DNA of 64,000 bases, taken from the NCBI RefSeq assembly GCF_017656155.1, contig NZ_JACDOH010000004.1, positions 1 to 64,000 of the forward strand, read 5' to 3'. Positions 28,200 to 30,516 of the stretch are shown here, piece after piece. Within the stretch, counting starts at the first letter, position 1; each line of letters starts with the position of its first letter. The notes below the pieces were generated by a model. That model was given only the letters and a program-made list of their open reading frames with translations. It searched no databases and had not been told where the DNA came from. Made by a program: the position numbers and the translations under genes. This stretch comes from Thermosyntropha sp. (GTDB lineage: Bacteria > Bacillota > Syntrophomonadia > Syntrophomonadales > Syntrophomonadaceae).

Positions 28200-28299
28200 T
28201 ATCATTCTTCCTGATAAAAAGGCGTTAAGCTGATTTAGAGGGGGGACAGAAAAGTTTCGGCCGTTTACTCTGTCCTCTCAGAGTAAACGGCCTTCATTT
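28200..28299 (+). ncRNA. Candidate riboswitch-like leader A (before the TM1266-type gene)
   Basis: The core at 28200-28245 is shared with leader B: hairpin TATCA-TTCTTCC-TGATA, then AAAAGG, AAGCTG, TTTAG and a G6 run. The UUCC of the hairpin loop could pair with the G-run to make an H-type pseudoknot. Downstream, the G-run and following ACAG (28240-28249) can pair with 28270-28279 (10 bp, two G-U). That helix excludes a 14-bp hairpin, 28259-28272 with 28279-28292 (loop TCCTCT, then TTCATTT), which looks like a terminator with a weak U-tract. So the G-run would decide between the two folds. The ligand is unknown and the structure was drawn by eye. Confidence 0.6.
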
Positions 28300-28317
28300 A
28301 AGAAAGGGGTTTTTAAA

Positions 28318-28569
28318 ATGCAGAAAACCCGCTTAGGAGTGGTAGGAATAGTCATAGAAAACCGTAATTCTGCTGCAGAAGTAAACAGGATACTAGGCGA
28401 ACATGCACATATAATAATAGGCCGTATGGGCGTTCCTTATAAAGAAAAAGAGGTGTCGGTTATATCGCTGATTGTAGACGGAAATACTGATGAAATTGGA
28501 GCTATGACAGGAAAGCTGGGTAATATTCCTCATGTTACAGTTAAAACCGCTTTAACCAAAAATAAATAA
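28318..28569 (+). CDS. TM1266-family putative hydrogenase-system regulator
   Basis: This 83-residue protein belongs to the small ACT/NikR-C-like family often annotated as iron-only hydrogenase system putative regulator (type member TM1266 of Thermotoga). It spans the whole domain: a first strand (KTRLGVVGIVIE), an alternating helix, the central IIIGRMGVPY and a C-terminal helix-strand unit. It has no DNA-binding domain, so regulation would need a partner or act on RNA or metabolites; its function is unproven. A GAAAGGGG site precedes the ATG. It stands between candidate leader RNAs A and B. Confidence 0.85.
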   Translation: MQKTRLGVVGIVIENRNSAAEVNRILGEHAHIIIGRMGVPYKEKEVSVISLIVDGNTDEIGAMTGKLGNIPHVTVKTALTKNK

Positions 28570-28587
28570 AACTGTAAAATCGAAATC

Positions 28588-28693
28588 TATCATCCCTGAT
28601 AACAAGGTCAAAGCTGCGTTAAAGGGGGGCTTAAATAGATAAAAGCCTTTTCAAGCTTCCGCCTTCCTTATCAGGGCAGGCGGATTTTCTTTT
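28588..28693 (+). ncRNA. Candidate riboswitch-like leader B (before hydG)
   Basis: The core at 28588-28629 repeats that of leader A: hairpin TATCA-TCCC-TGATA, then ACAAGG, AAGCTG, GTTAA and a G6 run. The loop UCCC could pair with the G-run. A strong terminator follows: TCCGCCT (28658-28664) with AGGCGGA (28678-28684), an inner CCT/AGG helix and TTTTCTTTT. Two competing pairings exist: the G-run plus CTT with AAGCC at 28643-28647, and CCCTGATAA (28594-28602) with TTATCAGGG (28668-28676), which lies in the terminator loop. This is the architecture of a transcriptional on/off switch in front of the maturation operon. Confidence 0.65.
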
Positions 28694-28729: not shown

Positions 28730-30196
28730 ATGCTTACCAAAAATGAGATCGATAAGTGGATTGAAAGTGTAATAAAACCGGAACAAATTGAAAAATATTT
28801 GGAAAATGGACGCGATTTTATCGATGACCACTTTATATATGAAACCCTTATGGCCAATAAAAATCCAGACAAATCAAGAATAAGAGAAATAATATCTAAA
28901 TCACTGGAACTAAATCGGTTGGAACCTGAAGAAACTGCAGCCCTTCTCAACTGTGAAGACGAAGAATTATGGGAAGAAATGTTCGAAGCTGGTGGTAAAA
29001 TAAAGGAAAAAGTATATGGACGAAGAATAGTATTCTTTGCCCCCCTTTATGTCAGCAACTACTGTGTAAACAGCTGTGTATATTGCGGCTTCCGCACGGA
29101 AAATGAGAAAACAGTTCGCAAACAGCTTACTATGGAAGAAGTAGAAGCAGAAGTAAAAGCTCTAATTTCCAAAGGCCATAAGCGCCTCATTGTAGTATTT
29201 GGCGAACATCCATTATCCGATGTTCATTTTATAGCCAAAACCTTGAATACGGTTTACAACACTAAAGAAGGCAGAGGCGAAATTCGCCGCTGCAATGTTA
29301 ACGCAGCCCCTATGTCCATAGAAGATTTAGAAATACTGCGTGATGTAGGTATAGGAACCTTCCAGGTTTTCCAGGAAACCTACCATCATGAAACTTACAG
29401 GAAACTTCATCCCCGCGGCATAAAAGCCAATTACGGATGGAGGCTTTATGCCCTGCACCGTGCTATGGATGCAGGTGTAGATGATGTAGGTATAGGTGCA
29501 CTTTTCGGCCTTTACGATCCCAAGTTTGAAGTTATGGGACTTCTGATGCATACCATAGACTTAGAAAAAAGGTTTGGGGGGGTAGGTCCTCATACCATAT
29601 CATTCCCCCGTTTGGAACCTGCTTCTAATACTCCATTTACCAGACAAAGCAAATACCTGGTAGATGATAAAACCTTTAAGAAATTAGTAACTGTAATCAG
29701 GCTTTCTGTCCCCTATACCGGCATGATTTTAACTGCTCGCGAAAGGGCCGAAGTCCGAAGGGATGTTATACCGGTAGGAGTAACCCAGATAGATGCCGGA
29801 TCCAACATAGGAATCGGCGCATACAGCACAGATACCGTCGATCATGACCGGCAGCAGTTTATATTAGGAGATACCCGGGGTTTAGATGAAGTCATTCGTG
29901 AAATGGCAGAAAACGGGCGAATAACCTCCTTCTGCACCGCCGGTTACCGCTGCGGCCGAACTGGCGATTACTTTATGGATATTGCCAAAAAAGGGAAAGT
30001 CCATCATCTGTGTATGCCCAACGCTATTCTAACCTTTAAAGAATACCTATTAGACTATGCAAGTGAGGAAACTAAAATGGTCGGTGAAAAATTAATAGAA
30101 AAAGAACTGGAAGCCCTGCCAAGCGAATCTCTTAAGAATACCGTCCGGGAAATGCTTAAGCGAATTGAAAACGGAGAAAGAGATCTTTTCCTGTAA
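28730..30196 (+). CDS. hydG: [FeFe]-hydrogenase maturase HydG (tyrosine lyase)
   Basis: This 488-residue radical-SAM enzyme cleaves tyrosine to supply CO and CN- for the H-cluster. The SAM cluster motif is Cys112-x3-Cys116-x2-Cys119 (CVNSCVYCGFR). The C-terminal auxiliary cluster in known HydG is bound by Cx2Cx22C. Here the sequence is C402-T-A-G405-Y-R-C408, then Cys428: the second ligand position is Gly, and a Cys occurs three residues later. Otherwise the motif context (GRTGDYFM, PNAILTFKEYLLDYAS) is normal. AGGAGG precedes the ATG. It is first of the hydG-orf-hydE-lyase-hydF run. Confidence 0.96.
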   Translation: MLTKNEIDKWIESVIKPEQIEKYLENGRDFIDDHFIYETLMANKNPDKSRIREIISKSLELNRLEPEETAALLNCEDEELWEEMFEAGGKIKEKVYGRRIVFFAPLYVSNYCVNSCVYCGFRTENEKTVRKQLTMEEVEAEVKALISKGHKRLIVVFGEHPLSDVHFIAKTLNTVYNTKEGRGEIRRCNVNAAPMSIEDLEILRDVGIGTFQVFQETYHHETYRKLHPRGIKANYGWRLYALHRAMDAGVDDVGIGALFGLYDPKFEVMGLLMHTIDLEKRFGGVGPHTISFPRLEPASNTPFTRQSKYLVDDKTFKKLVTVIRLSVPYTGMILTARERAEVRRDVIPVGVTQIDAGSNIGIGAYSTDTVDHDRQQFILGDTRGLDEVIREMAENGRITSFCTAGYRCGRTGDYFMDIAKKGKVHHLCMPNAILTFKEYLLDYASEETKMVGEKLIEKELEALPSESLKNTVREMLKRIENGERDLFL

Positions 30197-30207
30197 AGAA
30201 GGTGCAA

Positions 30208-30516
30208 ATGATGTTAAACCTGATTGATTTAATACCAGAAGAAAAAGTTAAAGATGAAGAAGACCTTATAGAAAAATGTCATGAAATCATAAAGCAAATT
30301 TATCCGGATCTTTTGATAAGGTGGGCTAAAATTTACGGCAACCGCTGGTCTTTTATAAGAGGCGATCAAACCGGCTTAAGCCTTGCCATGGAAAAACATC
30401 AACTCACAAAATCTGTTGGAATTTTGCTTGATAATCCTGAAATCCTTACCCCTGAGCAAAAAGAAGAGCTTTTAAACGGGCTCAAGGAGGCTTTTTTGAA
30501 TGCCAAATATGTCTGA
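30208..30516 (+). CDS. Small unrecognised protein encoded between hydG and hydE
   Basis: This protein of about 102 residues is of no family I recognise. The start is probably ATG 30208 (or 30211), 5 nt after GAAGG; a GTG at 30202 is less likely because it overlaps that site. The sequence is soluble and mixed helical, with a Trp/Arg-rich middle (IRWAKIYGNRWSFIRGDQTG) that could be a nucleic-acid or nucleotide contact, and no cysteines for a cluster. It starts 9 nt after the hydG stop and overlaps the start of hydE by 17 nt, so it is translationally linked to maturation genes. A role in H-cluster assembly or its control is inferred from position only. Confidence 0.7.
   Translation: MMLNLIDLIPEEKVKDEEDLIEKCHEIIKQIYPDLLIRWAKIYGNRWSFIRGDQTGLSLAMEKHQLTKSVGILLDNPEILTPEQKEELLNGLKEAFLNAKYV

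Follow-up and report, generated by a model that had tools for sequence, protein, structure and literature searches.

The [FeFe]-hydrogenase locus of Thermosyntropha sp. carries the same short sequence element ahead of two of its genes, which raises the questions of what kind of element this is, how it could act on the genes behind it, and what could act on it in turn. The window (the whole stretch of DNA analysed, 64 kb) contains in this locus hydC/hydB/hydA, a TM1266-family gene (28318–28569, + strand; TIGR03959, 119.6 bits against a cut-off of 60.8; Pfam PF21699), hydG (28730–30196, + strand; TIGR03955, 515.9 bits), a 104-amino acid ORF, hydE, an aspartase gene and hydF. The aspartase association has been published (PMC11736057). 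The 104-amino acid ORF, at 30202–30516 between hydG and hydE, has no Pfam or NCBIfam match, and a similar small ORF (RW..I.G.RW) lies between hydG and hydE in many Syntrophomonas loci (e.g. L122, L123, L126, L132, L141 and L144); its product may be an H-cluster-linked protein of no known family.

Two hairpin copies in the hydrogenase locus

The first-pass annotation reported a core shared by positions 28200–28245 and 28588–28629, and a count against shuffled sequence bears this out, with the pattern TGATAAMAAGG-N{2,8}-AAGCTG occurring twice in the 64 kb where 0.00 occurrences are expected. Relatives were collected with three covariance models, R1, R2 and R3, built from 4, 53 and 82 sequences respectively. 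Both copies have the same fold, as judged from R3, RNAfold and covariation in the family, with three short stems, P1, P2 (4 bp) and P3 (3 bp), 2x2 loops between them, and an apical loop.

Copy 1, in the leader of the TM1266 gene, spans 28208–28243 on the + strand (R3 46.0 bits, E 1e-9 in the window). Its P1 pairs 28209–28212 with 28240–28243 (extendable to 28206–28212 with 28240–28246), followed inwards by module 1 (28213–28214/28238–28239), P2 (28215–28218 with 28234–28237), module 2 (28219–28220/28232–28233) and P3 (28221–28223 with 28229–28231). Copy 2, in the hydG leader, spans 28593–28627 on the same strand (46.6 bits, E 7.5e-10 in the window), with P1 at 28594–28597 and 28624–28627, P2 at 28600–28603 (UAAC) and 28618–28621 (GUUA), and P3 at 28606–28608 and 28613–28615. 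The nested hairpins have RNAfold energies of -15.7 kcal/mol (z -3.5) for copy 1 and -11.5 kcal/mol (z -0.95) for copy 2.

The family consensus is (A)CCCUG[A/C]-P2-RAGG-loop-CUGA-P2'-RAGGGG. Because the 5' side reads CUGA-stem-RAGG and the 3' side CUGA-stem'-RAGG, the two internal loops are one and the same module, CUGA/RAGG, related to each other by a pseudo-dyad; its pairs are C-G, U.G, G.A and A.R. This fold replaces the one proposed at first, a TATCA/TGATA stem within an H-type pseudoknot. In 2 of the 82 members the TGATA-equivalent has a 5-nt partner on its upstream side, with 1.7 expected from shuffling, the pseudoknot is not conserved across the 82 members, and RNAfold prefers the nested hairpin. 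The proposed pairing of a pyrimidine loop with the G-run is itself real, and the part that fails is its assignment to a pseudoknot: the GGGG run pairs with UUCCU or CCCU as P1 of the nested hairpin.

Departures from this arrangement are seen in some leaders. Modules seemingly split across two hairpins (CCUGN...RAGGG), or a single module beside a Shine-Dalgarno sequence, occur in L098, L103, L106, L111, L113, L115, L168 and L170 and in the hydG leaders L258–L261, which suggests that a single module is the basic unit, of which the two-module hairpin represents one arrangement. Four leaders carry tandem hairpins back to back (L004 727–812, L016 1826–1909, L039 1451–1535 and L053 292–379), and the upstream copy in L039 and L053 is a variant with a G-C pair replacing the outer G.A mismatch.

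Covariation among relatives

A complete swap at the inner P2 pair was already present in two relatives found by pattern before R1 was built. In the alignment A5, 94.8% of cells are paired and seven of the 11 pairs vary on both sides. Its covariation score of 0.408 was reached in 0 of 500 shuffles, which give 0.126, and sliding the register yields no more than 0.11. Because A5 had been fitted to the structure, the test was repeated on a structure-blind MAFFT alignment. Here the four highest values of APC-corrected mutual information among all column pairs (0.62–1.02, with a background standard deviation of 0.107) all belong to P2 and P3 pairs; the next two are a further P3 pair and the A.G mismatch of the second module. 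The P2 sequence is exchanged wholesale between families, from UAAN/NUUA to CUUA/UAAG (L101, L105, L109), UUGC/GCAA (L094, L095) and GACG/CGUC (L153), and further exchanges are found outside the training set, namely CGC/GCG (hydG leaders, e.g. L249, L254 and L255), GCAC/GUGC (L296) and GAA/UUC (L290). Read from these alignments, the secondary structure is conserved with covariation, as is expected of a cis-regulatory leader RNA.

Distribution and downstream genes

The core recurs in related genomes in both the R1 and the R3 searches. At E<=0.5 the element is recovered by R1 from 32 of 54 family members' genomes; nearly all strong matches are on contigs with TM1266 or hydG, and there are often two per locus. 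R3 has matches at E<=0.001 in 39 of 398 genomes of the phylum, and in at least 38 when G289, where the match lies inside an ORF, is set aside. Weak matches outside the hyd loci were deemed false, lying inside ORFs or having no terminator (G000:C5, G289, G299, G037/G112, G277, G051:C16 and the low-complexity matches of G182 and G237:C9). A pattern scan of GTDB genomes names as carriers, among others, Syntrophomonas wolfei subsp. methylbutyratica, S. palmitatica, Gelria sp., Peptococcaceae UBA2264 and Desulfosporosinus sp. Tol-M, and the hairpin family recurs among anaerobic Firmicutes.

The two copies had been placed in leaders of functionally linked H-cluster genes, and the wider set agrees. 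TM1266 is the commonest gene behind the hairpin, with hydG, TM1266-hydE-hydG, hydE-hydG, aspartase-hydF and hydE-hydF as the other arrangements. Almost all matches in TM1266 leaders are upstream of the gene and on its strand; placement is thus consistently upstream of related genes and in their orientation, as in leader RNAs. Together, the hairpin structure and its regulon are well supported.

Two kinds of importer are also found behind the hairpin. First, in the metagenome-assembled genome Ch109 (G205) the target is an SsuABC-like ABC transporter (L084 2834–5385). Its substrate-binding protein shares 47% identity with a protein of G082 that is encoded within a TM1266-hydE-hydF operon (L304 3264–5980); the importers of these two genomes are orthologous, and link the transporter to the H-cluster. 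Secondly, in family f39 the target is the S component of an ECF transporter adjoining trpS in several genomes, and the G-run of the hairpin is the likely Shine-Dalgarno sequence, about 10 nt ahead of the start codon (L276, L277, L278, L273, L274 and L282, at about 1501–1535); it is conceivable that the substrate of this component is an aromatic compound.

Two further genomes, G342 (L297, L312) and G081 (L313), encode a full-length [FeFe] HydA with no HydG match and no HydF above the cut-off, and G342 has an operon in which the hairpin is followed by TM1266 and an SsuABC-like ABC importer. Both are draft genomes, so the absence of HydG and HydF is unproven; possible explanations are maturation without the usual maturases and incomplete assemblies. 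We also note a TwoAYGGAY RNA (RF01731, 46 bits) at L111 1841–1906, a little 3' of a TM1266 gene.

Terminators, Shine-Dalgarno sequences and the direction of control

Each copy had been said to precede a terminator, and terminator-like hairpins are indeed located at 28259–28292 and 28658–28684. The hairpin after copy 1 (+ strand) has 14 bp and a T-poor tail, TTCATTT. A possible weak antiterminator (28244–28275, + strand) can be read from the sequence, with GGACAGA (28244–28250) facing TCTGTCC (28269–28275), and its 7 bp are not energetically competitive with the 14-bp terminator; the terminator is too strong to be displaced thermodynamically, and switching at this copy would therefore be kinetic or weak. 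After copy 2, the terminator at 28658–28693 on the + strand consists of TCCGCC ... GGCGGA and then TTTTCTTTT, as identified from the sequence and by a terminator finder (on L007:1764). The corresponding antiterminator (28594–28676, + strand) joins CCCTGATAA at 28594–28602 to TTATCAGGG at 28668–28676 in a perfect 9-bp helix, and is part of the minimum free energy structure of the whole leader, at -36.0 kcal/mol compared to -32.4 kcal/mol with the sensor hairpin enforced (a difference of 3.6 kcal/mol).

Similar arrangements are general in the family. A strong terminator lies within 120 nt of the hairpin in 69 of 80 leaders, compared to 1 of 80 shuffled ones. Among 73 non-redundant leaders, the 3' strand of the hairpin and its flank pair better with the 5' arm of their own terminator (-11.0 kcal/mol) than with swapped ones (-9.2 kcal/mol; p<0.0002). 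Complementarity between the 5' strand and the terminator's loop and 3' arm is weaker, being marginal for all leaders taken together (p=0.036), and covaries visibly in single cases, e.g. CCCTAATA with TATTAGGG in L053 and CTCCTGACTT with AAGTCAGGAG in L105. The two states are less than 5 kcal/mol apart in half of the leaders. A terminator or a Shine-Dalgarno sequence under predicted mutually exclusive pairing is therefore present, again as in leader RNAs, with copy 1 a weak instance. Taken together, the terminator and Shine-Dalgarno arrangements point to an OFF element, in which the gene would be off when the hairpin is held.

Such an element could work as follows. The sensor would be the hairpin of about 35 nt, in which two inverted CUGA/RAGG modules flank a 3–4 bp stem of free sequence. 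When held, its strands would be kept from the terminator arms, so that the terminator forms and transcription stops; when free, its 3' strand and flank, and in several leaders the 5' strand too, would pair with the terminator arms, giving antitermination and allowing the gene to be read. Where the Shine-Dalgarno sequence is inside the hairpin, holding would block translation instead.

Candidate binders of the hairpin

Our main reading, to which we assign a probability of about 0.5, is that both copies are cis-acting leader RNAs that switch off H-cluster genes and that the likeliest holder of the hairpin is TM1266, which would then repress its own synthesis together with that of HydG, HydE and the associated importers. 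Several observations lead us to favour TM1266 over a small-molecule ligand. Its gene is directly behind most copies of the hairpin, and the TM1266 proteins are small and mostly of pI 8–10. The Thermotoga maritima TM1266 homologue is a homotetramer in crystal 2NZC (PMC12626770), and a protein of this symmetry would suit a pseudo-dyad RNA. TM1266 is present in 38 of 38 motif genomes, a count inflated by relatedness (about 17 families), and 0 of 40 genomes with HydG and without TM1266 have a match at E<=0.01, nothing beyond chance; as TM1266 leaders were among the training sequences of R3 and the counts are confounded by phylogeny, this co-occurrence is only suggestive. Against TM1266, only 2 of 32 genomes that have it and lie outside the training set have a match at E<=0.01, many TM1266 genes have no recognisable hairpin, and a regulon with importers is what metabolite riboswitches typically have. 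No report of TM1266 binding RNA and no description of its mechanism were found in the literature searched, the annotation being only that of a putative iron-only hydrogenase regulator. Binding of TM1266 to the hairpin, and any signal that it may sense, are inferred from these sequence comparisons.

The strongest competitor to TM1266 is a metabolite riboswitch, in which one or both CUGA/RAGG loops would bind a small molecule or ion linked to the H-cluster, thereby stabilising the hairpin and turning the genes off, with TM1266 merely co-regulated. This is possible, and we regard it as the less probable of the two. Two kinds of importer (SsuABC-like and ECF S component) accompany biosynthetic genes in the regulon, a combination typical of riboswitches; in addition, the loops contain many invariant nucleotides, some leaders have tandem copies, and both terminator and Shine-Dalgarno platforms are used. 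However, every motif genome sampled has TM1266, a lone hairpin of about 35 nt without tertiary contacts would be a very small aptamer, and an oligomeric protein would match the pseudo-dyad at least equally well. The importers are equally compatible with a riboswitch for a metabolite and with metabolite sensing by TM1266. A more specific proposal, which we consider rather unlikely, is that a new riboswitch class, or TM1266 as an RNA-binding sensor, measures a building block of the H-cluster and controls its dedicated importers too; in the two draft genomes where HydG and HydF were not detected, hydrogenase maturation may draw on imported material.

Proteins commonly bind small hairpins that have tandem-mismatch loops, and the hairpin described here could be the site of another protein encoded outside the locus, e.g. 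a general antiterminator or a ribosomal factor. The frequency of TM1266 in genomes with no detectable motif would agree with this, but the regulon is confined to H-cluster-linked genes and TM1266, which indicates a dedicated regulator, and we give such a protein little credence. Least probable is a DNA element, i.e. an imperfect palindrome for a transcription factor with base pairing as a by-product. The core does read as an imperfect inverted repeat (CCCTGATAA ... TTAGAGGGG), but the P2 sequence is replaced completely with pairing preserved, which a sequence-specific DNA site would forbid, the conserved positions are the unpaired, non-palindromic ones, the apical loop varies in length, and a terminator with complementary arms follows the hairpin.

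Relation to known RNA elements and significance

The first-pass annotation matched the element to none of the known RNA classes with which it was compared, and this survives a run against Rfam 15 (4227 families), which gives no match at the motif in the window, at the gathering threshold or at E<=10, and leaves the motif unmatched in 33 related loci as well; PyrR and mir-3121 were rejected as relatives, having only sub-threshold chance matches. The closest parallels are the protein-dependent attenuators, i.e. the PyrR binding loop, the TRAP/trpP leader, the LicT/GlcT RAT and the ANTAR hairpins, which are likewise short hairpins with conserved internal loops, located before a terminator or Shine-Dalgarno sequence in the leaders of their targets; these targets are often transporters and, in some cases, the regulator's own gene. 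The present hairpin differs from these in having no Rfam match, a different candidate regulator (TM1266/PF21699) and two identical modules per hairpin. Guanidine-II (mini-ykkC) and other minimal riboswitches are also small and symmetric, with a repeated module and with transporters among the genes whose leaders carry them. The guanidine-II modules are apical loops, whereas those described here are internal loops, again with no Rfam match. The Moco/Wco riboswitch (RF01055) is met in one leader of Desulfosporosinus sp. Tol-M (L135 4356–4956), where two tandem copies (78.5 bits each) lie between the hairpin and a hydrogenase-like gene with cytochrome b; its 135-position model is unrelated, and the motif does not match it.

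No description of the hairpin family was found in the literature searched, which lay outside supplementary tables and most subscription papers, so that an earlier report is possible; supplementary tables aside, the RNA discovery papers of 2019 and 2024 make no mention of hydrogenase, and neither does the premature-terminator survey. The family thus appears to be an undescribed one of cis-regulatory leader RNAs, which we do not class as a riboswitch.

We likewise found no prior description of RNA-level control of H-cluster biosynthesis. With a conserved, covarying leader that is not in Rfam found across anaerobic Firmicutes, synthesis of this cofactor is probably tuned through RNA, by TM1266 or by a metabolite. 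The hairpin provides a concrete, testable target for TM1266, and its regulon nominates new H-cluster genes, namely those for two importers and for the 104-amino acid protein. For syntrophic and fermentative anaerobes, it also provides a genetic handle on hydrogen production.
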